Assembly (NCBI RefSeq): GCF_019097595.1 | Contig: NC_080712.1 | Span: 20,812,146 to 20,876,145 of the forward strand | DNA from: Hemibagrus wyckioides | Taxonomy: Eukaryota; Chordata; Actinopteri; Siluriformes; Bagridae | Length of the DNA stretch: 64,000 nt | Direction of reading: 5' to 3' | In this document: positions 3,001 through 51,500 of the stretch, one piece after another | Numbering within the stretch: position 1 is the first letter of the stretch | Layout: every line of letters starts with the position of its first letter | Notes under the pieces: model-generated | Database searches by the model: none | The model's input: only the letters and a program-made list of their open reading frames with translations | What the model was told of the DNA's origin: nothing | Translations under genes and position numbers: made by a program

Positions 3001-6000
3001 ACAAGTGTGCACACCCCTTAACTGATACTTTAGCTACTTACAGCAGCTTTTGCTTGTAATGCAGCACCCAGGCTTTTGGAGTAAAAGCCCACGAACTTGC
3101 CTCGTCTTGATTTTATTCCATACTTCCTAGAAAAATGCTCCAGATGTGTCAAATTGCCAGAGGATCTTCTCTGCACAGACCACTTTAAGTCATTCCACAA
3201 GTTTTCTGTAGGATTTAGATCTGGGCTCTGATTAGGCCATGCCAAAACATTGATCTTCTTCTTTTGAAGCCATTTCTTTGTTGACTTGTGGATTTGGGCT
3301 TTGTGTTGTTGTCGTACTGGAATGTAAAAGTCTTTCATCAGCTGTCTAAGAGAAGGCCTACAGGTTTTGTGCCAGAATACGTTGGTATTTAGGAGCTGTC
3401 TATGAATGTTTTTTTAGGATCTATGGATGTGTTATTTTTTTGAGAACAGGCTTCTGTCTAGACATCATACCCCATAAGCCCAGACATCTGAAGAATTACA
3501 ATAGATTGTTGTCACATGCAAGGAGTGATCAGTACTTGCCAGATATTCCTGCTTTTCCTTTATTGTTGCCATTGGTCTTTTGGCAGCCTCCCTGATGAGT
3601 TTCTTCAATTTCGGAAGGACGTTCTGTTCTTGGTCATGTCACCGTGGTGCTTCATTTTCTCCAAATGTTGATGAAGGCCTTCATAGTGTTCTATGGTACA
3701 TCTAATGTTTTGGCAATTTTTTTGTACTGAATGATACCATTTCGACAATGAGATCCCGTATGTTTTGTGAGCCCTTTGTGGACCATGGCTTCAATAGCTG
3801 GAAAGAAATGTCAAAAGGAAAATCCTACAGAAACAGATGATCTTTATTTGAGGCAGGTGTATGATAATTCTTAAAATATGAATATGAGATTGAATATCAT
3901 TTATTGTGATGGCCCATTATAAAAGGTAGTGTGCATTTGTGCAACTAGGTTATTATAAGTTTTTCTTCTTTTCACATTTTATCATAAGACATTTTAATTA
4001 GTTTTTCGATAGCCTCCTGGTGGTCCAGCAGCAGGAACCCGTGCTCTCATTTTCACAGCCCGGGTTCGATTCCCCGGCAGGGAGATAACTCAGCCACTGA
4101 AGAGTTAAGGTCTCAAGCCCAAATAAAATGGAAGGGCTGCGTCAGGAAGTGCATCCGGCGTAAAACCAGTGCCAAATCAAAACAAGCGGACCAAATGATC
4201 TGCTGTGGCGAGCCCGAACAGGGAGCAGCCGAAAGAACAGCTTCATCATTACTTTATCAGTCAAAATGTGTTAGCTTCAATATTATATTAAAAACGTCCG
4301 AGATATTAAAAGCTGTATTCAAAAGCTGATTCTTGTTTAAATTGCACCTGAGATCATAAAAAAGATTTCACTTCATAAGCAGCGACCATGATGAAGGAGA
4401 AGAAGCTTTCTGAAGTTTTTAGGGACGAGCTTCTTAAGCAACCATGAAATGAAAAAAAAAGGCCAATTGTCAGTACAGTGGTGGGAAGGTCATTGATCCA
4501 CAGACTGAAGTGCCATGTAAGATTACACAACACATTCACCAGACTAATGATAAGGAGAGTTAGAGAAAAAAAAGCAGTCACTTGGAAAGAGTTGAAGGAT
4601 GATCTGAAAGCAGGAACAGCAGTTACACAGAGAAAAATAAGCACAACCATCTCTCGAGCTCGGTAATTAGGCAGTAAATCAGTCATCGTCATATTTGGAA
4701 AACTATGTTTGCATGTTTGTTCTCAAGAATGCCATATCCACAGGGAACAGTGGGTACAATATGTGTGTAAATTTTAAGTGGATGTTTGTTCATTAGTTAA
4801 CAGAAACATGTCTGAATACTTATTTTCCCTCACTGAAAATGGGCCCTTTACTCAAGTGAAGGACTATAAAGGGCTGATAAAGATCCACATCTAAACATTC
4901 TGGTTTATATTTATAAATGTAAAATTGATGAATAAGGAAGCGGTTAATGGCATTAGCATATGTGCTATGTGTTCTATGTCAGTATGCATTGTTGATGAAT
5001 AAAGTTATAATGTGAGTCATGCTGTTCACACTGTTGTGATAACAAAAATGAACAGGATCATATTTGAGTCAGATCTTCCTGATCTTCATGTAACTTTTAA
5101 GTCCCTGGAATATAAACGTCAGCCTCGTTTTGTACATTATCAGTCGTAATGTGACTACGTTTGACTGCACAGTGCACATTTGAGAACATGGTGTAGGTCC
5201 AGTATAACATGGAAAGTGGTATTTAACATATTCAGAGTCTGTGGCAGCTAGGTGTGTATTCTGCTGTTGGTCTAAGAGGTCTTTTGTGTTGGGTTGTTGG
5301 TGTAATATGACCTTTGACCTACACAGTTTAGCCTGGTGGTAATGTGTCTGCTAGGACATGAAGGCTTGTGTTGTTATGTCCAGTTAGTCATGGTGTGTCT
5401 TAGTAAGACTTTTTAACTGCAGGAGGAGGTGATTTTTCTATTTCTGCATTTTATCACAAGCTCACAGCGTTTCAGAGGGAGAACCTAGATGGAATTTTTG
5501 TCCAGCAATTTTTCACTGGATCAGTATTTTAGTAGATCTCCAAAGCCATTTCTGTATCAATGTTAAGCTGCAGGTACATCACCTATGTCCAAGTGGTAGG
5601 TTTGCTAAAAATGACGTTGATACATGTACACGTGAGTCTTTACGTTATTGTAATAACGGCTGATGTGATTCCTGGAGTTGTTATGCCGGGAATAAAATTG
5701 TAGCCTCCCACTGAAGTATTTGTCTTGGCTGTATGCAAATAATCTTGACTAGTTTCATTTTCTAGTTAGAACAAATACGTTCTATTACGTCATAGATTTC
5801 TTGTGTCCTATACCAACAGTAAAACGCAGGGTTGTTGATGGTAATCTGGAAAAAATATAGGCTTGTCTGTTCATGTTTTGGCACACTTGGTGATGCTGTG
5901 TGTCGGGGAAGTATGTTTCAGGCTGATATCAGTAGGCTGCCAGTCCAGACGTCAAATGGTTATTGATGCTTAAGATCTTATTCAGGAAGCATCTGGCTTT

Positions 6001-19755: not shown

Positions 19756-22700
19756 TTAAAATACAAGGGTCTTGGGAACCTCCCAAGGAAATTCAGGCCG
19801 GCCAAAGTGACCATAGCAGGCAGTCTTCTGGTAAATTGGCTTTTTCAGCTTCAGGTCCCTGTCAACAGAAGAAATTTATTAATGCTTATAGACTAACATT
19901 CTCGAAAGAGACTCCAAACTGTCGTCTTTTGGGTTTATGAGTTCACAGACAGTGACACCTAGCTAGCATTGCTCTAACAATGTTGGGATGTCTGCTAGGA
20001 TAGAGAGTAATGACATCCTTCTGACACAGATAACAGAGCCAAATATGCCCTCTATTGGAATGTAGGTCATGGATGACTGGGATTCAAACTCACAAGGGTG
20101 ACTCTTCACTTCATTGTGATGTTTAGTTTTTTAAACCATGAATGAATTATAGCCTCTTATGTTGTTTATCTTTTATGACAAACTGTGGAAAGAAAAAAAC
20201 TTCATTTGATCAAATGTAAAAAATTGTTTTATCTGATTATATAATACATTATATTATCTATTAGTGAAGTTATATTCTTGTAAAATTGTATAATAGGATT
20301 ATAAATATATATCTGTGACATTAGCATGTGTAAGGAGTGTTGATTTTTCCAGATTTTTTCTATATTTGTATTATTATGGGATGTTATGTGAATGTAGCAT
20401 GTTTTTGAGTGTCTTCTAAATCGTGTTGTAAACTCCTACTCTTTCATTTGTCCTTTCTGCTGCTTAGGTTTAACATACATATTTCATCCTAAAAGCACCA
20501 TATAGCCGACAACAGCTTACCTAACAATAACGCCAGGCCGAAGGTCAAAGTTTTCGTTGACAATGTGAAGCAGTTCTTTCTCTGTTTTCTCAGATGAACC
20601 ATAGGTAAAGAGTGAGACAGACAGTGGTTGGGTTACTCCAATAGCATAAGACACCTGGAAAAAAAAGAACAATCATTGTTTTCTAGCAATGAATTCTTTC
20701 TAAATTTAGTATTTATTTTCATCCTTAACACAAGTTTTGTGCACTCTGCCCTCTACTACTGATGTGTGAAGTATTTGTGTTTCAGGGAGAACCTTTGCAC
20801 AGATAATGTGTTACCTCACCTGTACCAGAACTCTCTTGCAAAGTTTAGCTTTGACCAGAGACTTGGCCACCCAGCGGGCAGCATAAGCTGCAGATCGGTC
20901 CACCTTAGTGTAGTCTTTTCCAGAGAAGGCTCCACCACCATGGGCCCCCCATCCACCATACGTATCAACAATGATCTTCCTTCCAGTGAGTCCAGCATCT
21001 CCCTGAGATTCAAACAAATTGGCATTAATGCATTAAATCCTGTGCGAATGTAAGCATAAAGAAAAAATCCTAAAGCATAAAGCATAAAGAACTCACCTGA
21101 GGTCCTCCAATGACAAAGCGGCCACTAGGCTGTAGATGGTATATGGTCTTGTCATCAAGATACTTTGCAGGCACTACAGCCTTGATGACCTTCTCCTTCA
21201 AAATCCTTTTTTGCTCCTCCAGTGAGATATAATCATCATGCTGGACTGAAATGACCACAGTGTGCACACGCAAAGGAATCATGGCTCCGTTCTCCTGCTT
21301 ATAATGTACAGTCACCTGGGGGTATGGAGAAGCATGTTTTAGGAATATTGATTCATAAAGAGAGTGCTTCCAGTGTATTATGGATTATTGCAAAATATTC
21401 TTAAAGTTCTTCAACTTAAAATGGCTGTAAGCAATATATATCCTTGCGCGGCTGTGCTCTAAGTAAGAATCTACAGTGGCAGTAAAATAGCCACTTGGAG
21501 GGAATGCACTTGTGGCTAAAAACTGTGAGCAAAAAGGTTTTGTCTTGCATAGAGGAGTCCGGCTTGGGTTGCTGATTATCTCTTAAGCAGGGGTTTCCAT
21601 TCTTATCCACAAAGGGCTGGTATTTGTACAGGTTTTCATTCCATTCAGGCCGTAGACACACCTGCTTCGACCTGTTTAATCAGTTGAGCTTGGCTTTCAG
21701 TAGTCTCAGGTGTGGCTTCTGCTTGGTTGGAATGAAATCCTGCAAGTCTGCTACAAAGGCAACACCAAAAATGTTGAATGAACCGCAAAATCAAAACTAT
21801 CAACAGTGAGGGATCATTTTCATCACAGTTCTAAACAAGTCTTGCTCTTTAGGAAAGACAAGTATTGGTAAACAGATGACCACAGCAGCTGTTAGGATGT
21901 TGTCCACATAGTCACAACTGCAGAAAAATCTCCCAAAAGGCTTGATTCAAACCTGTGTTTTGGAATCAGGACGGAGCCAAGGAATAGTGCCGTCACGACG
22001 CAGCTCAGCCATCTTGGCATTAAGTTTGTGGGCAAGGACAATGGTTAGGGGCATGGACTCCTCTGTCTCATCGGTGGCATAACCAAACATCAAGCCCTGC
22101 CAAAGCAGAATTTAGAGGATGATCATCCAATGTAGTTATAATCAATTCACACTGTTATTCTCTTTCTAGTTTTTACCTGGTCACCAGCTCCGATGTCCTC
22201 TTCGTGCCGATCGATGTGTACACCCTGTGCAATATCAGGAGACTGCTGCTCAATAGCCACCAGTACATTGCAGGTCTTGTAGTCAAAACCTAAGATCAGA
22301 TAGAAATGACACACATAAACATTTTAAATACACTTTTCCAAATGCCTGAAACGCCACTTGTCTGGTAATTCTTACCTTTCTCAGAGTCATCATAGCCTAT
22401 GTATTTGATGGTGTCCCTCACAACTTTCTGGTAGTCCACACTGGCATTAGATGTGATCTCACCACACAGAAGCACCATGCCAGTCTTACAGACGGTCTCT
22501 AATATGGAAGATAAACAACATCAATCAAAATATATCATGATAAACAACAACATAGAGCAAAATCTGAATGAAGACCATTATTAGAGGATTCAGTTACAGA
22601 GATCATTAGTGACTAGAGCTGAAAGAGAGAGTAGTAATGTGTATACGGCAGTAGATGAGAGTTTATTACTTAGGTACTCACCACAGGCTACTTTGGCATC

Positions 22701-32713: not shown

Positions 32714-33115
32714 AGTTGTCCCCAGGAAGTTTTTTATGTGGCAAATATGGTTTGCTAATATCAGTGTGGATGCTTCTAATGGCCTTTACCCAAGTACAGC
32801 CTGTGCGTTTAGTTGGGTTTCTGAGAAGAAGAAACTTTATCTCTCTTGTGAATAATGTTGTTAAGGATCAGGTCTATGACCGCACTTCCTCTGCCCTGCA
32901 GCGATACAGCCGACTATCCTCAGCCTCCGAAAAGAAACTTCAATTTTTAGTAAATAAAATTCACCCAGAATATGAGTCACCAAATTTTGTGGGATGCCAG
33001 TCTTCCTTTAAGTCACTTGCTTCTGTTAACCCCTACACCATTTGTATGTTTTCAACAAATCGCCAACTCTCAGTGAAGGACCAGAGCAGCCAATCCACCA
33101 TCTATAAGCCTAAAG
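32714..33115 (+). CDS. selenou1: Unusual in-frame upstream exon of selenou1
   Basis: A 402-base exon with a strong polypyrimidine acceptor (ends 32713) and donor AAAG|GTACTT. Its single open frame joins in phase to exon 34426 (AAG CCT AAA G|AA). The first in-frame ATG is 32770, in weak context; another out-of-frame ATG (about 32736) precedes it. The encoded peptide begins MLLMAFTQVQPVRLVGFLRR, a hydrophobic-basic start that could be a mitochondrial presequence. I do not recognise the rest. It may be an alternative N-terminus or merely leader sequence that happens to be open. Confidence 0.5.
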
Positions 33116-36100
33116 GTACTTCCCCAGCCTGCTCTACAGCCTTTCCTTTGCATGTGATTTGTTGATGATGCAAGACTGAAAAATAAGCCTGAAGTCAGTT
33201 TGTTCATGTAAAAGGTAAACATACTTCTTTGTCTGGTTGAAAAGCAGGAAAGTTTCTGGATTTTAGTGACTTTGTACATGTATGTTATACAAAGGTCAAG
33301 TCATTTGGATTTTATTTATAGCTCTTTTAACACTGGACTTTGACACTAAGCTGCTTGACAGAAATCTGAATGTAAAATTTTAATTCAAATTGAAAGTTTA
33401 TTCCCATATGAGTACGTCAGAGGTGACGGTAACAAGGAACCATCCTTGGCTTTCCATGCAGGGCCATCTTCAGCAGAAGCCATTTTTACAGGTTGCAAAA
33501 TCACCAATTAAGTGGCATCAGGATGGTTCAGGCATGTCCCAAGGGCAGAAGGAGTTAGGATCACTGGTATCATTGGATTAACATGTATAGCTTGACAGGT
33601 GGTGGGGATTAATTGGTATGCTCTTATAATGGTTTAAGAAGATGTACAGTTATGTTCAGAGTGCAAGCATGGACTCTCTCAAGACTGCCTGTGACAGCAT
33701 AATTAAAAGGGAGAGCCAGATATGAAGGCACACTAGGAAATAAAGACTTCATTCTTCAAGGTACCAAGATAGGACCTATACATTTTGATCGCAGCAGACC
33801 ATTAAAAAACACACACCAGAAGTTCACTTGGGAATTGCAGAGAGTGATCATTAAGTGTTCTTTAGGTCAATAGGAGTATTTCATATTTGTGGACAAATAT
33901 GATGAGGTGTGGTCATATCTTCTGGATTTAGTTAGCTGCTGTATTCTAGACTTCTAGAAGTGGAGAATTTTATGCATGTACTGGAACATCCAGACAGCAA
34001 GGCATTATAGTAATCCAACCTAGAGGTAACTAAGCATGAACTAGTTTTTCTGCATCCTGTTATGGAATATGTCTTATCTCTGCAATATTTCCAAGATAAA
34101 ATAATATATTTAGTAATATTATAATGTCTTTAGTAATCTAAACGAGCTTCGAAAGAGTCTTGAGTCAGTAATCACACCGAGGTATTTTACTGCGGGACAT
34201 GATGAAACAGAAAGACCATCCAGAGTTATTTTGTAATCACAAAGTTTACTTCTAGCTGCATGTTCCAGTACAGATACTTCTGATTTGTCAGCATTAAGTA
34301 GACAGAGGATACCCAGAATTCAGTGTTTATTATCCTTTAAACATTCCTTATCTCTATTAAGATGGTGTCTCTAATCTGACTTTGCAGAAACGTATAACTG
34401 GTCTTGCTCTGTCTTCTCACTGCAGAACCACTGTCCACTGTGGAGGCGAACACGGCCATCGTGGACATGTGGTCAGTCACCCTTGGAGCTGTGGGTGCTG
34501 CCATTGCTGGCATAATTCTGGCTAACACAGATTTTTTCCTGACCAAGCCTGAGTTTGCCACTCTACAGTATCTGGAGAATGCTGATCTCAGAACTACTGA
34601 GGGGAGTAAGTGGGATTTCACATCTTTATCCACACATCAACAGTATTAGTGAGAGGTATGGAGGTTGATCTGGTAGTTGCAGTTCTTATGCTATTTGATT
34701 GTATCTATACTCTTATACTGGTATCTAACAAGCCACAATAATCTTATGTTTTTAATTGCCTTAAAAGAGAGAGCATTATTTCTGTCAGTATAACTCACTG
34801 GTCAGTCAACAAATCCATATAACAAGTTCATTTTCATTTAAGTGTGTTTCTACAGATTTAGTAAGAGTGCATTTAAAAAAAGGACAATACATTTTGTACT
34901 ATTTGATTTGCTCAGTATGATACTAAGGAATATTTAAAATATCAGACAATTAATTTAATCCTTGTAAAATTTAAAAGGACATCATATTATACTCTTACGT
35001 GAAAATACAATGACTTCACTGGTCATAGCTTTATATGTACATGGGCAGATCAGATGGGGATCCTGTTGTCTGTCGTTTTTAAAATGCAATGAGACATCAT
35101 GATGGCCCTTTTTTATGTTTTAAAAAAAAATGTTTTACACTATTTATGCATTTAGATGAGAAGGTAATTAAAGCTAGAACTCTGTGGGCGACATCTGGAG
35201 CAGTGATCATGGCTGTACGCCGGCCTGGATGATTTTTGTGCAGAGAGGTAAACTTGATGCATTAGCTTGTATTGTGTTTAGTGTAGAAGAGCGTGCTCAT
35301 TGCTTATATCCTAGGTGCACTTGTCTCTTTACAGGAAGCTGCTGAGCTGTCCTCTCTGAAGCCCCAGCTGGACAAGCTTGGGGTACCGCTGTACGCTGTG
35401 GTCAAAGAAAACATTGGTACAGAGGTTCAGGATTTTAAACCACACTTTGCTGGAGACGTCTTCCTGGATGAGAAGGTTAGAAGAGCTGATGCTTGTTTTT
35501 TGTTGTTCTACAGTGGTATTGTCAGAATGAACATATACACTTGCCATTAAAATTATGCAGATGCAGGTTAAGCTCTTTAGTTAATGTTCACATCAAAAGT
35601 CATGATGGGGAGCGTGTGATCTCTGACTTGGCATTGTGGTTGTTGGTGTTAGATGGGCTGTTGTGAGTATTTAGGAAACTGCTGATCATCTCGATTTTCT
35701 CACACAAGCCTTGAGACTTTGTGAGCAGAGTGTCTGCTGGCTGATACACTTTCGTGAGAAAGCTTAAGTTTAATAACTACACTGGCCTGAGGTGACGGGA
35801 AGTCCGTTGTAACTGTAGATAATGTTTTGTGCATGCAGAGATGCTTTTTGCTCACCATGGTTCTAATGAGTGTTTATGAATATAGTGTACATGTATCTAG
35901 TATATTTTTTCTGAAATATTGTTCATCTTCATTGCTCAAAATTTAAAGGAATATTAGCTGTAGGTATACCACTGTTCTACTAGCATGTTTTACAAAATAA
36001 CCAGGGACTTTGTGTTGTGGAAAGCACAGTGATCAGTATTAGAGAAAAGGAACCGCTGGAGTGTAAAGGATGTCTAGAGGCCCTTGCTTTGAATTGCTTT

Positions 36101-36353
36101 AGCTCGTATGCAGCCGCAGGACATTCATTAGTTTCTCACAGTGCTCTGGTGGGGACGGACCCGCATATTGCCAAGGAGGTTCTGATGAACATTTGCATTC
36201 ACCTCGTTTTGTAGCTGTATAAGAGGACCGAATCATTCTGCAGAGAACCATCTCTCCCAAACCAGAACACTTTCACATGTTGTGTGGACAGAGGAGAACT
36301 GATCCAGAGATTCAGTGATGAGAGCAAGTTTCATTCATTCAGTCTGGCCACTC

Positions 36354-36394
<41 letters not shown>

Positions 36395-37038
36395 TAAAAT
36401 AATTGTGTGCAAATCCCAGGAGATCTGCAGTTTCAGTAATACTGTAACCAGCCTTTCTGGTGCCAGCAACCATGCCATGGTTAATGTCACAGAGATTAAT
36501 TCCAGTTCATAATTTTGATGTGAATATTTGCTGAAGCGGAAATGATTTTTTTCCACTGTGCTGCACATGATTATGTATCACCGTGCATTGCTTTTAGTTT
36601 CTGTAGAAACGCCTTCTATTAATACCTGTACATGAATACATGTAAATACTGTTACAGCAAGTGTTCTATGGTCCTATGCTGAGGAAAATGGGTGGTCTTG
36701 GATTAATTCGTCTGGGAGTTTGGCACAACTTCATAAGGGCCTGGAGGTCAGGTTACCAAGGAAACATGAATGGAGAGGGCTTCATCCTGGGTGGTGTGTT
36801 TGTCATTGGATCTGGCACGCAGGTGACATTATTAGGACACATTCTATGACTTGACCTGAGTGATAAAAGCATTAATATAATATTTTACTCTTTGACCTGT
36901 CTGTATCTTCTGATGTTTAATTTCCTACTTTTCTGTCATTCATAGGGAGTTCTTCTGGAACATCGGGAGAAGGAGTTTGGAGACAAAGTTGATTACGAGT
37001 CAGTTTTGGAGGCAGCTAAAAAAATAGTTCAGAATTAG
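32770..37038 (+). CDS. selenou1: Selenoprotein U1 (peroxiredoxin-like 2A, Sec-containing)
   Basis: Exons: 32714-33115, 34426-34605, 35156-35247, 35335-35475, 36658-36822, 36946-37038 (stop TAG). The core matches PRXL2A/FAM213A throughout: IILANTDFFLTKPE, LDKLGVPLYAVVKEN, MNGEGFILGGVFVIGSG, LLEHREKEFGDKV. Exon 3 reads AVRRPG-TGA-FLCRE; human PRXL2A has RRPGCFLCRE, so the TGA at 35230-35232 stands for selenocysteine in a U-x-x-C thioredoxin-fold redox site. A SECIS hairpin in the 3' UTR (37427-37492) supports this. Known family role: antioxidant, thioredoxin-like reductase activity. Two starts are possible: ATG 34467 (good context, MWSVTLGAVGAA, a membrane-like N-terminus as in the human protein, 209 residues) or ATG 32770 in the preceding in-frame exon, adding 129 residues rich in Arg and Ser (338 in total). 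The short form is the conserved one. Neighbour of mat1a as in human. Confidence 0.93.
33640..34370 (-). mobile_element. Decayed LINE reverse-transcriptase remnant
   Basis: Read on the minus strand, it contains LNADKSEVLVLEHAARSKL, ITLDGLSVSSCPAVKYLGVI and a later piece equivalent to 'SRLDYCNALLSG', all typical of the end of fish L2/Rex-type LINE reverse transcriptases. Stops and shifts break it. It lies antisense in the intron between the 32714 and 34426 exons of selenou1, ending about 55 bases before the latter. Confidence 0.75.
35230..35232 (+). other. selenou1: Selenocysteine codon (TGA)
   Basis: In-frame TGA between GGA (Gly) and TTT (Phe) in the exon 35156-35247. Coding similarity to PRXL2A continues unchanged on both sides, and the position is the first cysteine of the human CFLC motif. 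With the SECIS downstream, this is a recoded codon rather than a nonsense mutation. Confidence 0.93.
35476..36657 (+). other. selenou1: selenou1 intron with Tc1-type pieces
   Basis: The longest of the introns after the Sec codon. Segments at about 35600-35740 ('aggaaactgctgatcatctc') and, inverted, 36405-36560 ('ccaggagatctgcagtttca') match the inverted-end family at 14300-14945. A TA repeat with AAAT units lies at 36356-36398. The stretch 35990-36340 is not recognised. Confidence 0.55.
36356..36398. repeat. (TA)n/(AAAT)n microsatellite
   Basis: About twelve TA units followed by four AAAT-type units. Confidence 0.9.
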
Positions 37039-37585
37039 ATTGTTTGCTTGGTGATCTAGGGATAATTTTGTAGCTTATAAGCAGGTTGCTAATGCAGAAC
37101 AAAACACTAGTCAATGGTAGTATTAAAACAACTTTTTAGAACAAACAGATCAAGCATTCCTACATCCAACCTCATTGCTTCATCTAATAGTGTGAATGCT
37201 CAGGAAAGCAGTTTCTGCTGAATCGACACGAGAGTATCTTCACAGACAAAATAAGTACAAAGTGTGGTCAGTAACGGTGTTTACCATTGCATCATTTGCA
37301 CCATTCAGGTACATAGTTCTTAAAGTTTGTGCACTGCTGTTTTGCACTTTAGAAGTTATTGTATTGAGCTCTTCTTCACTCAACCAGGTTCCGCTCGATG
37401 TCCGCTGTGTGACTGTGGCTCAGTTTGTGTGTTTTAATGATGGTCCGACTCAAAACTCCTTAGTGAACGAGCAGACTTGAAGCTTAACATACTTTCCTGT
37501 TCATCAGCTTTTCATTAATGGACATCCAAAGATTCTTAAACAAGTGGAATTCGCTATACAATAAAAACAGCAGTCACAAAAAATG
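37039..37585 (+). other. selenou1: selenou1 3' UTR
   Basis: About 540 bases from the stop to a polyadenylation signal AATAAA at 37560-37565. It contains the SECIS element and no other feature. Confidence 0.75.
37427..37492 (+). promoter_or_regulatory. selenou1: SECIS element (form 2)
   Basis: RNA hairpin that recruits SBP2 and the Sec elongation factor. Helix 1: GUGUGUU (37427-37433) pairs with AACAUAC (37486-37492). Quartet: AUGA (37437-37440) faces UGA (37478-37480), giving the tandem G.A/A.G pairs. Helix 2: GGUC with GACU and CUC with GAG. The conserved unpaired AAA is at 37452-37454, 11 bases above the quartet as required. ACU/AGU (37455-37457 with 37462-37464) forms the extra mini-helix of form 2 with a CCUU loop. 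It lies 389 bases after the stop codon. Confidence 0.92.
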
Positions 37586-39829: not shown

Positions 39830-42800
39830 TTACAAGCCCTTGTTGAAATAAACCACGGTCGTGTTAGGATTGCTCTGTCGTATACTCTCCTGCAGCTCAG
39901 GCTCCAGCCCGCTCACCTTCATAGAGCTACACACACACACACACATGAAACCATCAGTACAACAACCAGAGCCACCTACAACCTAACAGAGAGCCACCAT
40001 CTTTAAAAATAAATAAGAAATGTGTTTAAATCAAGTGCTCACCTCTTCTGTGGGAACAGGGCACAGCACAATGGAGTAGCAAACACCAGACTACCAGAGT
40101 GGAAACACACAAAATTAATGATCAGCTATGATACAGGAATTTTTCTGTCTCTGATATAGAATTCATTATTAGTGAAACTCACCATAATCCCACAAGCCCA
40201 ACCTGTACTGGGGCATTGAGCACTGGGAAACGCTGGAGAGGCAGAGAGAGAGGAGATTTCCATGTTTCATGGCTCACACAACACAGTGTTGAAAGTGCAG
40301 TTTAGCTCAAGAACCACATATTGATGTCCTGCATAATTAGTTTATTTGCTTATGTAGCAGCTAATACGCATTGTTTTACATGCCACCTAGTGGTGGAGTG
40401 TAGGAACTGCATTGTATCGTGTGCCACTGTGCAAATTTGTGACAGATTAAACGTCAATAATTAAACAACTCTTATCAGATAGAGCAGAACAGCAAGCTGG
40501 TGACATGTCAGGAAAATAGTAGGGACACGGTGACACTACCTTCATGAAAGCTTTTTTCTCCAGGGCATTCATGATAACAGGAGGAATAGCTGTTAGAAGA
40601 ATACAGAAAAAAAAAACACTTCAGGAGACTTCTGGCAGATATACTGTGACAAAACAAGGAATAACATAGTGCCAGTCCTGGACCACAGAAGGACTGAGGA
40701 TGGGGTATGTTTCTAACTTTATTATCTGACAGCAAAGAACATGGAAAAAACAACTTATTTTCAATTTCATTGTCAATTTTAGGGACAGTGGTCATAATTT
40801 TGATACATTCTTAAATGTGGACTGTAACAGCTAAGATGGCTACCTGTCTATCTTAAAATCGATCTCTTCTGAGAAAATAAACAAAATCTATCATCCGACT
40901 CTAACGATTCAATTGCAATAAAGAATGAGATTAGCTAAAGCACAAGGGTTAGACCAAGGGCATTTCCCACACTTGTTTTTTTTCTCCAGGCCTGCTCTGG
41001 GCACAATCTCCGATTACACCATTAGCATTACTTTATTAAAACAGTTCCGACTCCTTACCCATGGCTGGTACTGCCATGCCGATTCGGGACACCACCACCT
41101 GTACAATGGCCTGCTGAGCAGCACTGGCAGACTCTCCCAGGCGATTCCCCTCCTCGTCAGTGACAGGAATGCCATACTTCAGTTCCCTAAACAAAGCCAA
41201 TAAATGGTGAGTATTCTCTGCATGTCTTGATACATATAAATACTGATGATATTTGGATTAAATCATTTAAAACACACCGTTGTCTCATGAAGGGAATGTT
41301 AATGCAGTTTGCCGCTGCCACTGCAGCAAAAGGAACAAAACGTCCAATAATAGCTGGCAGGTGCTGGCAACAACAACAAAAAAAAATCATTAACACCTAA
41401 AGTATGAAACTTTTCATTGTAGTATATTAATCTCAAATTACTTTTATTACATAATGCAGTAACATAATTACACAGTTATAACCAATACATGTCCTAGAAG
41501 TCAATTTTATTCTCAAGCAAGTGGGGAAGTGTAATGTACTGTACACTAGACAAAAAAGAAGAGAGCACTAGATATGTGATGTAGAGAAATAAAATGCTCA
41601 CCTTGGTGAGGGACTTGAGGCCAAGAGCAGTGACTACAGCTCCAGTTGTGGCACTGACATAGGCTGCTCCAAGCTGACTGCAAAAAACCCAAACACAGAG
41701 ATTAATGTAAAGTGTAAAAGCTAAATTTAGTCATTCAAAACAATATAGATAGAGTTCATCAATTTGCAATGCATGCTTAAACCAAAACTAGCTTTACTTT
41801 ACATTGATCACAACTATACGTAGTTCTTCTCCAAACTATTGCCACAAAGGAAGTGTAAGTACACAGTTGTCTATACAAACATCTTTGTATGCAATAACAT
41901 TTTCAATTCACTGGAACTAAGAGGCCCAAACCTGTTCCAGCATGACAATGTTCCTGTGCATAAAGTGAGCTAACTAACTAACTCTGTGTTAATACTTGTG
42001 GCCTTGTAACAGGTACATAAGTTTGTGGGCACACACATTTGGCCATATAGTGCATGTGATTAGCTGATGTGTTGACTATCATGAGAATTTATGCTTTCCA
42101 TAACTGATTAAAGGCGCTAAACAGCACAGGATGGACTGGAGTGATCTTGTACGCAATTACTACCAGCTCGACAGTGAAAGACTTGGGCATAATATTAGAC
42201 AGCAACTTGTCTAGTGCTGCTAATATGAACAGCAGCTACACTAATTCTGTTCCACTTGTTTCTCTTCTTCTACCCAACCCGAGGCATACAGAGATTGTGC
42301 CAGCTCCAGAAGACAGAGGCCAACACTGCGAGGATCCCAAGACATCCAGAGATGGACCAGCTCCAGCTGGGTACTGCTTCGTGAGGACCTGGGTATTCAA
42401 AGCAATGCTGCCAACCCTATGTGGACTTTGAGGACCACAACCACCTCTTAATTAATACACACACTAACATTCTACATCACACAACTGACTATACATAAAT
42501 GCAGAAAGGACACTGTTCATGTCTGGTGTCACCCAAATGAGGATGGGTTCCCTTTCGAGTCTGGTTCCTCTCAAGGTTTCTTCCTCATACCATCTAAGGG
42601 AGTTTTTCCTTGCCACAGTCGCCTCTGTCACCTTAGGCTTGCTCACTAATTTTGTCTAAACATCAAAGACATCAATGTTTGCATGTTTTTTGTTTCTTAT
42701 GTTCTGTAAAGCTGCTTTGAGACAATGTTCATTGTTAAAAGTGCTATATAGATAAAATAAAACTGAATTGAATAGGAGTGCTATTTTTGTTTACATTTTT

Positions 42801-45508
42801 CAACCATAGGTTACATGATGAAGTCACTTGCTATAAAAGAGCAACGTGTCCTTACTTTACAGTGATTGGTGCATCTCCACTACGATTAGTGTAGTTGACG
42901 ATGGCATTGAAGGACTGGTTGACCCACTGCCAGAACACAACTGCTGGAGTCGTCCTGAATAAGAAGAAACATAAAAAAAATATATATATTTAAAAAAAAA
43001 AACTTCACTGAAGGAGGGGGGAAAAATAATCCACAGTCAAAGGTTTGATTTGGCAGCTGTTTTCGGAAAAATATGTCCTCTCAAATACGTGCCACAGCAG
43101 TCACACACTACCACCCACTGCTTACTCCTCCCTAGCTTTCAAACAGCAGACTGGGAAATCAGAGAGCAGAGAAGCAACCCTTTCAGTTTATTCAAGCTCA
43201 AAGATTTAACAAGCTACTGTTAGCCAGCTAGCTCACTACTATTGGCCTTAGAACTGAATACAGCACCACTGTGTGAAAGTAAACTCACACTGGGACAATT
43301 TATAAGACAATCACTAAGAGATCAGATCCCCTTCACCAACAGTGTTATCTATTAGCATTTATCAACTATAAACATTTTTCAATAACTTTCACTAACTTTA
43401 TGAAGCTTAATTTACAAATCTTTGTGTTTTTACAAAAAGTTGTGGGTAAATGTTTGTGCAAAACAAACCAAACAGGAAACAAAAACATGGCTAACGTGCA
43501 TTTAGAGACTCCCACAGGCAAAGCCCACATAGCTGAAATGACTCTCTCAGAAGTAAATGTGAAAGTTATTTGACTCAGATCTATGCCAACATTATTAAAC
43601 AGCGAAGCAACCCAGTGACAAGCCCAAAATCTGAAGCTGGATGACAAAAAAAGTGAATTTACTGTGAATTAATTAAAGTGGAAAAAAATGGTTTGAAAAC
43701 AGAAAAATATATATTTATCTGCTGTATCCAGGTGATTGTGGACATCAAGACATCACTCAGGAAAACCACTTTTTTATTCAAAAGTGTTTCAGTGACATAT
43801 GGTTAGAACGCAGGAGGTTTAAATAAGGATTATTTAACACCCCCCCCCAAAAAAAAACAAAACAAAACAAAAAAACTAAAACCTTTTTAAAGAAATTATG
43901 AAATATGACAATATACACTGTTCTGGAAAATAGTCAGTATTATAGCATTTCAACACCTACACACCTTCCTCCAATCAAGAGTTTCTGTAATACATTTACA
44001 TTTCTGGCACTTGGCAGATGCCATTATCCAGAGCGACTTACATTTTTATCTCATTACTGAGCAATTGAGGGTTAAGGGCCTTGCTCAAAGGCCCAGCAGC
44101 GGCAGCTTGGTGGACCTGGGATTTGAACTCACAACCTTCCTAATAGTAGTTCAACACCATAACCACTAAGCTACCACATCCCCAATTTGCATAATTAAAT
44201 TATCACTGAATTCAGCTTTCCACATGCTCTTGTTAAATGCAACACTACCATTTGGCTGGCAGTTTGTTAGTAAGCCTATAAATTGTCACATATATTGTGT
44301 CAAAGTGTGATAGATGTTTGCCATATGACCTAGCCCTACATGAGTATTTAGGAATCAAGAAATACAACTCAGCTGAACCAGAAGTGAAACTTTATCAAAA
44401 CTCACTGAGAAGGGTTTTTTTTTCCCCCATGGTGACATTTGAGAATTACTACTTTTTTGTCTTACTTTCATTTCCTGTACTGAATTGTGTGCTTTCAAAC
44501 TTTACCCTTCATTTCATTGTAGTATGGAAAAAAGGAGGTAGGTTGGATAAATACATGAATAATCTTTCTACTTACTACACACCAATACATTTCCCCTTAC
44601 CTATAGAAAGTAAGCATGCAGCCTGTGATGGTCATGTTCATTGGCACTTGTGCAGACATGCGACCGACCAGCAGCATCTTCTCACCCGTGTCAGGATGGA
44701 AGGCAGAGTCGTAGATGTATTTGGCCCTCCATAGTTGATCCTCCGTCAGGCCTGGTTTCACAATTCCCTTTCTGTGTAGGAGGACACAGCGGTCAGTTAT
44801 TTTAACACCTCAACAGTCACAGGTGGCACCAACTGCTTCATACAGTGTAGCTGTCCTATTAACTTTCAGCACCATGTTATTTTTCACAGTAGAAATTATA
44901 CACTTGAACACCTTATACTACATACATGGTAAATTAGGTGTCAGTATAACACTTATGAATATGGTGTTTATTTTCTGTGCTGATGAATTTTCTGCTCCGA
45001 CTGGCTGAAAGATTCATTTTCTACAACAGCATCTCTTACTATAGCTCTGCTGGTTTTTATCACATAAATTATATGGCCAAAAATATTAAAAGTGGACACC
45101 TGACCATAACATCCATATGTGGTTCCTCCCCAAACTGCTGCCACAAAGTTAGAAGCACACAAGTAATACAGAACATCTTTCTATGCTGTAGTATTACAAT
45201 TTCTCTTCAGTGAAAGATTAAATGTAATAACATATGGATAAAACTACTGTTTTACCCACTATGTCTGTGTTAGTGTTTAGCAAATGTCTGTGGTATAAGA
45301 GGAAACTCTTCATGTCATTCCGAGTGCATTAACATCGTGCTGACCTGTAATCCTCAATAATGACTCGTGCGTCCTCCAGAACCGCATTTGAAAGCAGTAC
45401 ATTTCTTGGGTCGGTCACCATGAAGAAATGCTGAGCTCTGCCCATAAATGTACTCTGGTCCCATCGTGGCTCCTTGATGTTGATGTTCAGCGGCAAATCC
45501 CCAGACAT
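39830..45508 (-). CDS. sfxn3: Sideroflexin-3, mitochondrial serine transporter
   Basis: Ten coding exons in transcript order: 45508-45345, 44771-44601, 42954-42856, 41677-41602, 41363-41278, 41186-41059, 40589-40540, 40232-40183, 40090-40043, 39926-39830. They total 969 bases, 322 residues, the usual family length. Sideroflexins are inner-membrane carriers; SFXN1 and SFXN3 import serine for mitochondrial one-carbon metabolism. Seen: N-terminal [14 protein letters not shown], the signature [43 protein letters not shown], and near the C-terminus [17 protein letters not shown]; the protein ends [12 protein letters not shown]1 and SFXN3 are close in sequence (ITVNQLG here is SFXN1-like), but the adjacent head-to-head pdzd7 matches the human SFXN3 locus. 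A short 5' UTR piece (45525-45509) splices to an upstream leader exon. Confidence 0.94.
40380..40393 (-). promoter_or_regulatory. CTCF-like motif in sfxn3 intron
   Basis: ATGCCACCTAGTGG matches the reverse form of a CTCF core (CTGCCACCTNGTGG) at 13 of 14 positions. Motif match only. Confidence 0.4.
41800..42055 (+). mobile_element. Tc1-type remnant (same family as 18672-19550)
   Basis: Contains 'ctccaaactattgccacaaa', 'aggcccaaacctgttccagc' and the outer end 'atttggccatatagtgca', with an internal deletion. In the intron upstream of sfxn3 exon 4. Confidence 0.65.
42100..42776 (+). mobile_element. LINE 3' end (L2/Rex-like)
   Basis: Plus-strand peptide [17 protein letters not shown] (42150-42200) is the end of a LINE reverse transcriptase related to the copy at 33640-34370. 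After a deletion comes the well-known fish LINE tail: 'ctctcaaggtttcttcctca', 'gggagtttttccttgccac', 'gtaaagctgctttgagacaa' and a terminal 'aaactgaattgaa'. In a sfxn3 intron, antisense to the gene. Confidence 0.75.
43990..44190 (+). repeat. Dispersed fish repeat ('gagcgactta' family), copy 2
   Basis: Same ordered blocks as 19127-19300: 'tccagagcgacttaca', 'gggttaagggccttgctcaa', 'cagcttggtgga', 'ctaagctaccaca'. In the intron between sfxn3 exons 2 and 3. Confidence 0.75.
45068..45220 (+). mobile_element. Tc1-type end fragment (same family as 18672-19550)
   Basis: Starts with 'atatggccaaaaatattaaa' and 'gtggacacctgacca', followed by 'aaactgctgccacaaagtta'. Only the left end is present, in the first coding intron of sfxn3. 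Confidence 0.7.
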
Positions 45509-46482
45509 CTTTCCTTATTTACTTTCTGTTCATGAAGAACACAAGAATTTTTAAAATGCATTCTGGTTACCAAAACAGGCCAAGTCACATGCAATAGACC
45601 GGCTCAGGAAACCTCAGTCAAAATATCCTGCAATACAGGTTTTCTACCTCAAATGGTTTTATGCTATGAAAAGAGTTTTAAGTTACGCATTGCTCTCCAT
45701 GTTCTCTAAAGATAACCAGTTATTGCTTTAAGCTTCCTGAAGAGTAATTAAACTGAGATGCCTTATGAATTACAAATGCTTTGATAAAGTGCTTAAGGCT
45801 GTGTCTTGCCATATCTTATAAATAATGTCAGTTCATCAGCAGTTTAACTCTTTAGTGTACATAAATATAGTCTAAGCTGTAGGCGTCAGGAAAACCAAGT
45901 TTTTCCACTAGAGACAACCTGTAATCTATTTCAAAATTAAAATAGTAAATAGTGAAATCTGTAAAACTAGCATGTTTGTAGCTTCAAATCTACTAAAGAA
46001 ACTGGCAAAACATGTACCTATTATTTTAACTGCTGATGGATGTACCCTAAGTTTCAGAGGTAGAAAAAATCAGTAGTTTATGCTTCATATTGTCTTTTAA
46101 ATATAAAGTTTCGTTAAGCATCATCATCATCATCATCCACACTTAGCAATATTAGACCTCTCAGTATTAGCGAAATAACTAGAGCTAAGCTAGCCCAGAA
46201 TATCTTGGTTAATTCATATGCATGTTTATATTCAACTGCAGATATCAGATGAATACATAAAGATTGCACAGCTGTTGGTGAAACTATTAAATGGTTTCAC
46301 TTTCAGAGTTAGCCAGGTGAGGTAGATGAAGATAACCGAGGACTTGCTAGCAAATATTAACCTAGCTAGCCAACACAACTAGCTAGCTATGCTAGATGCT
46401 ATTAAAGTCACTTTCAGACACACTCATCGTTTCGGTGAACTGAAATGCTTATTCTTCTAATCGTCTAAAGCCATAAACATAC

Positions 46483-48584: not shown

Positions 48585-51500
48585 ATGGCTTATTCGTCTG
48601 CTGACTCCCGCAGAGAGATGACGAACGGGACCTATCCTAACACCCATCCAGCAGGCCCGGGAACCTCCACTTTGCCACGGTACTTGCACAAGAAGCAACA
48701 GCGGCAGAAGGGAATGAGATCTTCCTCTCCGATGGGTAGAGTCATCCTCATCAATGCACCTGTAGATGGTGAGCTACATGTTTAGTCAACAGTTCAGTTG
48801 AATTAAAAATAACCTCTTCTATGTGACGTGAAAGTCATATTTACATATGAGTTTTTACATGTTGTGTGTGGTGCTGTCTGGTTGCAGGTGGGGATGATAG
48901 TGAAGACATCCACACAATTACAGTCGACAAGAGTGAGGATGGTAGGCTGGGCTTCAGTGTGCGTGGTGGTTCAGAGCATGGCCTTGGCATCTTTGTTAGC
49001 AAAGTGGAGGACAATAGCTCTGCAGGTATACATACATACATACATGCATTGTATTAGAAATTATTATCTGATCTAAACAACTCTTGCTCATGTCATTATG
49101 GTCTGACTTTAGAGCGATGCACTGCTTCTACACATTTCATTTACATATTTTGTATGTCCACCACAGAATTTGCAGGGTTGTCTGTTGGGGACAAACTGGT
49201 GGAGGTGAATGGTATCAGCCTGGAAAGCATTACCATGAGCAGTGCTGTGAAGGTTTTAACAGGGAGCAATCGTCTGCGCATGGTAGTTAGGCGTGTAGGG
49301 AAGGTGCCTGGAATCCGCTACTCCAAAGAGAAGACCACATGGTAAAGGAAGAATTTTCAACTTACATTCAAATATACAATCATATGGGCAATTCTGCCAC
49401 AGTTTTGTTCAAATTATGGTCATTATGTAAGATGTATTAATTCAGGGTTTCATTTATTATTACAAATCAAACTGCTTTAGGTCATTTTCTCTATGCTTAT
49501 TTTAATATTTTGATATAATCAGACATAACACAGTTCATAATTATTTCAAGATATTTCACAATTCAAGACCTTTTAAAAAACCTCTTGGTGATATTCAACA
49601 TTGCTGATGGCCAGTCTCAACATTTGGCTTGCTTAAGTTTGGCCCAGCACATACTGTAATGCTATTACAATGAGTAAAGTCTGTGTCAGAAAGCATGTGT
49701 CTCAGTGGACCCATATAAAAAGGATAATTACAGTCTGTCGGGATATTCCTGTAAATTCTGACTTAAAGCTAAGGCAACAAAATTAATCACATAAAAGAGG
49801 AGAATGAAAGCTGTTCTGGCTTTGTCACCATCCTCTGTGGTTCATGCCCAGCAGTGTGGAAACCCACTGACTCTTGGCCTTTGCTCATTATCTTTCCTTC
49901 CAGCTACTCTTTCACCATACAATGGGTACAGGCTGTGCTGTTATTTCATTAAGTAGTATTACCATTACACTAGCACATGTCCATGTTTATGGTTGAATGG
50001 TTCTGTACATGTTAATAAGTATCTTTATAGTTTTTATATGTTGATGTGAGATTGTGTGCAGGCCTATGTTAACTAAAAACAGAGTTTTGTTGTGTTGTGC
50101 TAATTATGTTTACAGATTTGTGATTTGTAAATATGTAATTGTGTGTAGGGTTGATCTAATCCACCGGAGGATGGTGGTGGAAGAGAGTGGTCGCACCCCC
50201 TCTGAGGTCAGCTCAGATGGAGCTTTGCGCCGGATTGTGCACCTCTACACCACCTCAGATGATTACTGCCTGGGCTTTAATATCCGTGGTGGCAAAGAGT
50301 TTGGCCTGGGCATCTATGTCTCAAAGTATGGACAAAGAAGGAGCTGCATCTCTGTGGTTTATATTTAATAGGATTTCTTGCTTTGAAGTCCCTGTTTCAG
50401 ACTGCAAAGACTTAGTTGTTAACTTGTTTGTTTTGTTGATGAGGTTGGACCCTGGTGGCTTGGCAGAGCAACATGGTATTAAAATGGGAGACCAGATTCT
50501 GGCAGCAAATGGAGTTAGTTTTGAAGATATTACACACAGCAATGCAGTGGAAGTCCTGAAGAGCCACACCCATGTCATGCTCACCATTAAGGTAAGAGGT
50601 ATTATTATTAATTTGCAGAATTATTAATTGATTCGACTTTGTCACCCTTAGCCTACACTGGCTTTGTCTGGATTGAATTGAATGAAGGACAGGAGCAATA
50701 CATTATGTGCTTTATGAATATTTTACACTCACTGGATACTGACATTATTTATGGAATGCTTCAAAGAATATTGTGTTTAAAATCACTTCTCTGTTGGAAA
50801 CTCTCTCATGCATTCAAACAGATGACAGAGACAGATTACTAATGATAAAAAGGCTAAATGATTAATAGGGAGAAGTCAGAGCTCTACATGTACTGAATGG
50901 CAGCTAAGTCTCTACATAGTTTCTCATCAAAATGTTGAACAACACAATTTTTGTGTTTTGGAACATTAACCCCAGTTGGATAATACTTAAATAGAAGTAA
51001 TATTTCGAACATAGATTTTTCAAATTTGAAAATTATTGGCACTCTTACTAATAATAATTTGTGAACTCTGCCCTGGAAAGAATAGCGCAGAGTCACTTCC
51101 TGTAATGTCTAAAGAGATTTGTAGAGGAGTCCAGATTCATTCCTCCGTGTAGGACAAATCTCATGTTTCAGACCAGACGTTTTTTAGACAGGTGAAACTT
51201 TGTTATGCTTTTTGCATTTTACTTTGCATCTGCGCAGTCATAAATATAGTTGAAAGAGAACACAATTATTTAGCCATATTCTCCTCATGTCCATTTGTCT
51301 TTCCTCAAGGTTCTTTGGTTTCCTCGCACCTTCCAAATACATCCTGCTTGGTGAATTATACATACTAAAGCTGCTCTTATGCACTTGCCTTATGAATGTT
51401 GATATCATCTCATGTGTCGCATTTCCAGGACAGGTTCCTGGCCACAGTTACTGAAGATGAATAAAGCAGTTCTACACTATAATTCTGTCACTCTAAATAG

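Follow-up and report, generated by a model that had tools for sequence, protein, structure and literature searches.

An in-frame TGA most likely read as selenocysteine in the selenoprotein U1a gene of the catfish Hemibagrus wyckioides

Introduction

How is a TGA triplet to be read that lies in frame within an otherwise intact coding exon? This question is raised by a prxl2a locus on contig C3 of the 790 Mb genome of Hemibagrus wyckioides, which we studied within a window, i.e. the whole analysed stretch of 64,000 nucleotides. A first-pass annotation, made from the letters alone, had proposed that this TGA is a selenocysteine (Sec) codon, that the gene encodes the fish selenoprotein U (SelU) orthologue of PRXL2A and that plain annotation would break the gene. 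Sec insertion depends on the SECIS element, which recruits the machinery comprising SBP2, eEFSec and tRNA-Sec. According to PMC3316567, Sec-containing SelU1 occurs in bony fishes in the copies a, b and c; SelU1 includes all Sec-containing SelU, the fish whole-genome duplication yielded SelU1c, and SelU1b arose in Percomorpha. Literature on a catfish SelU selenoprotein or on teleost SELENOU1 was not found within the collection and terms searched. Here, we conclude that the TGA is very likely read as selenocysteine and that the gene represents fish selenoprotein U1a, a known protein, using Sec in the ordinary way. This is already known biology that is often mishandled by automatic annotation.

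Results and discussion

The locus encodes a Prxl2A protein interrupted by a single TGA

Using the human PRXL2A sequence as tblastn query, we obtained an alignment in pieces on the plus strand (34467-37026) that extends from MWS nearly to the C-terminus. Joining the six exons of the splice model yields a sequence of 1017 nt, which is divisible by three, and all five introns have AG/GT borders (Table 1). The locus is complete: the joined frame comprises 338 codons up to the final TAG and is free of frameshifts, and its sole internal stop is the TGA, which represents codon 201 of the long frame or codon 72 when counted from MWSV. The position given for the TGA in the first-pass annotation proved exact to the base, and the translated exon indeed reads AVIMAVRRPG-TGA-FLCRE in intact phase on both sides. 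The triplet occupies the first-Cys site of a CxxC-like motif. It is not there by chance, since both flanks align with PRXL2A and a second locus has a TGA at the same codon (see below). Upon substitution of Cys for Sec in the query, the core matched PF13911 (AhpC-TSA_2) at 73.4 bits (cut-off 27), which together with the Prxl2A homologues identifies the product as a Prxl2A/AhpC-TSA_2 protein.

Table 1. Coordinates of features at the prxl2a/SelU1 locus (window numbering) and at the C13 paralogue (L013 numbering)
Feature	Position	Strand	Basis
Upstream coding exon from ATG 32770, N-terminal extension	32770..33115	+	donor AAAG/gtactt, in-phase join to 34426; coding use inferred
Exon with conserved start MWSV (ATG 34467) and membrane-anchor-like stretch	34426..34605	+	tblastn 34467-34601; acceptor ctgcag, donor gtaagt
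Exon with Sec codon	35156..35247	+	tblastn on both sides of the TGA; splice sites (ag before, gt after)
GT, potential false donor; use would delete exactly 33 nt (VRRPGUFLCRE)	35215..35216	+	sequence; matching gap in 19 of 120 listed homologues
TGA most likely read as selenocysteine, motif U-F-L-C	35230..35232	+	sequence; TGA at same codon in C13 paralogue
Coding exon	35335..35475	+	tblastn; gene model
Coding exon	36658..36822	+	tblastn; gene model
Last coding exon, ending in TAG 37036-37038	36946..37038	+	tblastn; gene model
SECIS element in 3' UTR; core ATGA 37437-37440, AAAA 37452-37455, TGA 37478-37480	37429..37490	+	RF00031, 29.6 bits; core kept in paralogue
AATAAA polyadenylation signal, 3' of SECIS	37560..37565	+	sequence
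Sec TGA of C13 paralogue	L013:2088-2090		sequence, same codon as window TGA
SECIS match of C13 paralogue, 3' of stop codon	L013:4451-4515		30.1 bits, RF00031

A whole-protein search returned 514 homologues, 120 of which were listed. The best two are Hemibagrus guttatus proteins with 90 and 91% identity and, judged by sequence, the closest named relatives among the matches listed are catfishes. Orthologous proteins with PF13911 are recorded for Tachysurus ichikawai as 'selenoprotein U 1a isoform X1' (P0005; 87% BLAST identity) and for Silurus meridionalis as 'selenoprotein U 1a, partial' (P0007; 78% BLAST identity), but the Sec segment is intact in neither of them: P0005 is devoid of VRRPGUFLCRE and P0007 has other residues there. 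Mammalian PRXL2A (FAM213A) agrees with the window gene in family and length (68% identity for the ground-squirrel sequence) and differs in having Cys in place of Sec, as the first-pass annotation had stated for human PRXL2A and as also described in PMC3316567. The only solved relatives detectable by sequence are two entries (4.1e-18 and 2.7e-15) for prostamide/prostaglandin F synthase (PDB 9us9), which is Cys-based and belongs to the same superfamily, though to a branch farther away.

A SECIS match, a Sec-type paralogue and a tRNA-Sec gene support selenocysteine decoding

Scanning of the 64 kb window with Rfam under an E-value threshold gave 26 matches, the only SECIS match (RF00031) being located on the plus strand 390 nt 3' of the TAG and before the AATAAA. 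This element possesses the core blocks of the model, i.e. ATGA, an A-run and TGA, although it scores 29.6 bits (E 0.024 for 16 kb and 0.095 for 64 kb, versus 4227 families) and thus falls short of the gathering score, which is 35 for this family; no Rfam family reached its gathering score in the window. Folding energy is unsupportive, as the SECIS region folded no better than shuffled sequences (z -0.16; 77 of 200 shuffles as good).

A protein search of the own genome produced 10 matches (weakest E 0.028) that fall into two loci only, namely the window on C3 and C13:2935868-2939093. The C13 copy reads RRPG-TGA-SLCRE and resembles the window gene in its TGA codon, its SECIS match 3' of the stop codon and its exon layout after the TGA, whereas it differs in carrying USLC rather than UFLC and is separated from it by a dN of 0.24 and a dS of 1.39. 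Its SECIS match likewise remains below the gathering score and has moderate folding support (z -1.84; 11 of 200 shuffles as good); alignment of both elements revealed AATGA, AAAC and TTGA in common. Over the 137 codons after the TGA, the comparison of the two copies yielded a dN/dS of 0.175, a rough ratio because dS is near saturation; the 24 codons before the TGA gave 0.21. Thus, the part downstream of the TGA has been kept as protein by purifying selection in both copies. The paralogue is probably SelU1c, and two Sec copies in one catfish fit the duplication history outlined in PMC3316567.

The host also encodes the cognate tRNA. A tRNA-Sec gene is present on C17 with 78.7 bits, representing the sole match out of 21 above the family cut-off, and ARAGORN designates it tRNA-SeC with anticodon tca. 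In the controls of the tool, this family was matched loosely in 14 of 14 cases and above the cut-off in 5. The SECIS match, the paralogue with its own TGA and SECIS match, the selection after the TGA and this tRNA gene all back the Sec assignment of the first-pass annotation, which is further strengthened by the database records considered below and by published SelU1 biology (PMC3316567).

Gene anatomy, SECIS match, paralogue, post-TGA selection and tRNA-Sec gene are observed; Sec insertion itself, enzyme activity and cell location are inferred. In the proposed mechanism, the mature mRNA would retain the exon containing the UGA, and the SECIS element in the 3' UTR would bring in SBP2, eEFSec and tRNA-Sec. 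Ribosomes would then insert Sec at 35230-35232 and continue translation to the TAG at 37036. The predicted product belongs to the peroxiredoxin-like 2A proteins and carries the redox motif U-F-L-C where mammals have C-F-L-C, and it would probably act as a thiol/selenol antioxidant enzyme.

Database records break the gene at the probable Sec codon

When the 71 residues preceding the TGA were used as query, 33 of the 44 listed proteins terminated exactly at RRPG, while the other 11 matched the first core exon and then diverged as in intron read-through. The RRPG-ending set includes record P0124 from Ictalurus punctatus as well as bird, lizard and one snake records. Therefore, the trait is not confined to fish. 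An unnamed record, P0121, is identical to P0124 over its last 73 residues, has the extension in front and also ends at RRPG; as it covers three exons without break, it suggests that a spliced message containing the Sec exon exists in a relative.

At the Sec site, sorting by pattern assigned the 120 listed homologues (of 514) to 85 with Cys, 19 without the segment, 5 that are one residue short, 2 with Trp and 9 unsorted. Fish rows with C were left out as evidence because a real Cys is indistinguishable from a U stored as C. The 19 proteins without VRRPGUFLCRE, which show the gap VIMx-EA, include predictions from Hemibagrus, Tachysurus, Silurus, Astyanax and Serrasalmus. They could be taken to mean that splicing normally avoids the TGA: a donor at 35215 would join 35214 to 35335 in frame, and the normal product would be devoid of the motif. 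We regard this as very improbable. Such a product would be without the catalytic motif, and the RRPG-ending proteins, one of them from Ictalurus punctatus, extend beyond the 35215 donor site. Moreover, the source label 'lgn', presumably denoting read assemblies, occurs in none of the 19 gapped rows versus 19 of the 120 listed rows overall. In PMC12822975, skipping of this kind is classed as misannotation; among Ensembl selenoprotein transcripts, the Sec part is missing from almost 22%, and 33% terminate at the Sec codon. The gap thus likely reflects a gene predictor evading the stop by use of the equivalent of GT 35215-35216.

The latter figure of PMC12822975 identifies termination at the Sec codon as a known annotation flaw. 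It also bears on the reading that the TGA is a genuine stop, yielding a protein of 71 (or 200) residues with the remainder as a relic. The 33 related proteins annotated or predicted to end there would agree with this view, but selection acts on the post-TGA codons of both copies, and in many vertebrates relatives with Cys are translated over their full length, so that a genuine stop has hardly any probability left. Equally negligible is a pseudogene or an assembly error creating a nonsense codon, either of which would show a TGA in a coding exon, as it is at odds with the otherwise open 338 codons, the purifying selection after the TGA and the SECIS match, and is already contradicted by the identical TGA of the paralogue on another contig. 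On this evidence, splicing-out as the main route, a true stop and a pseudogene or assembly error were all rejected, leaving selenocysteine decoding as the preferred reading.

The prediction that plain annotation breaks the gene is borne out by the proteins stopping at RRPG and by the homologues without the Sec segment. Since pipelines truncate or cut the gene, the prxl2a records of catfish and other fish need mending. The locus illustrates cleanly how standard pipelines damage a selenoprotein gene in this way. Nothing new in principle follows from it: SelU1 with Sec, the duplication of this gene in bony fish and the annotation failures are already published (PMC3316567, PMC12822975).

An N-terminal extension precedes the conserved start

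The long frame places 129 residues before MWSV, mostly derived from the first exon of the model and for the rest from the start of the next exon. This extension starts MLLMAFTQVQPVRLVGFLRRRN and is arginine-rich, as mitochondrial presequences are. Of 76 candidates, 3 proteins matched residues 1-125 of the long form; one of them belongs to Hemibagrus guttatus, and the other two are unnamed. A Pangasius djambal prediction also contains the extension, and the extension-bearing records differ in length by whole residues. Among the proteins searched, every record containing the exon is either unnamed or from a catfish, and the exon is the sole part of the locus unmatched to described biology. It may serve as a targeting sequence, or it may be a 5' leader in frame with the gene. 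That catfish SelU1a gained a translated extension, so that a Prxl2A form with Sec would be targeted differently, is a tentative idea that we consider somewhat doubtful. In another Hemibagrus guttatus prediction (P0001), a transposase domain (PF13358) lies ahead of Prxl2A and replaces the extension seen in the conspecific P0002; this fusion probably adds to the annotation artefacts of the gene, here at its 5' end.

Neighbourhood of the locus

When 18 other ORFs from the window were scanned against Pfam, 12 had no match at E 0.01. The window carries traces of transposable elements, i.e. a DDE_3 transposase stretch (PF13358) at 3033-3413 on the minus strand and a UnaL2 LINE 3' element at 44001-44054 on the minus strand, the latter at 43.9 bits and thus below its gathering score of 55. 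An S-adenosylmethionine synthetase exon (PF02773) is located at 20814-21032 and three sideroflexin exons (PF03820) at 41039-45514, all on the minus strand, and a PDZ exon (PF00595) is present at 50160-50624 on the plus strand. MAT1A, SFXN3 and PDZD7 share human chromosome 10 with PRXL2A, and synteny therefore looks kept.
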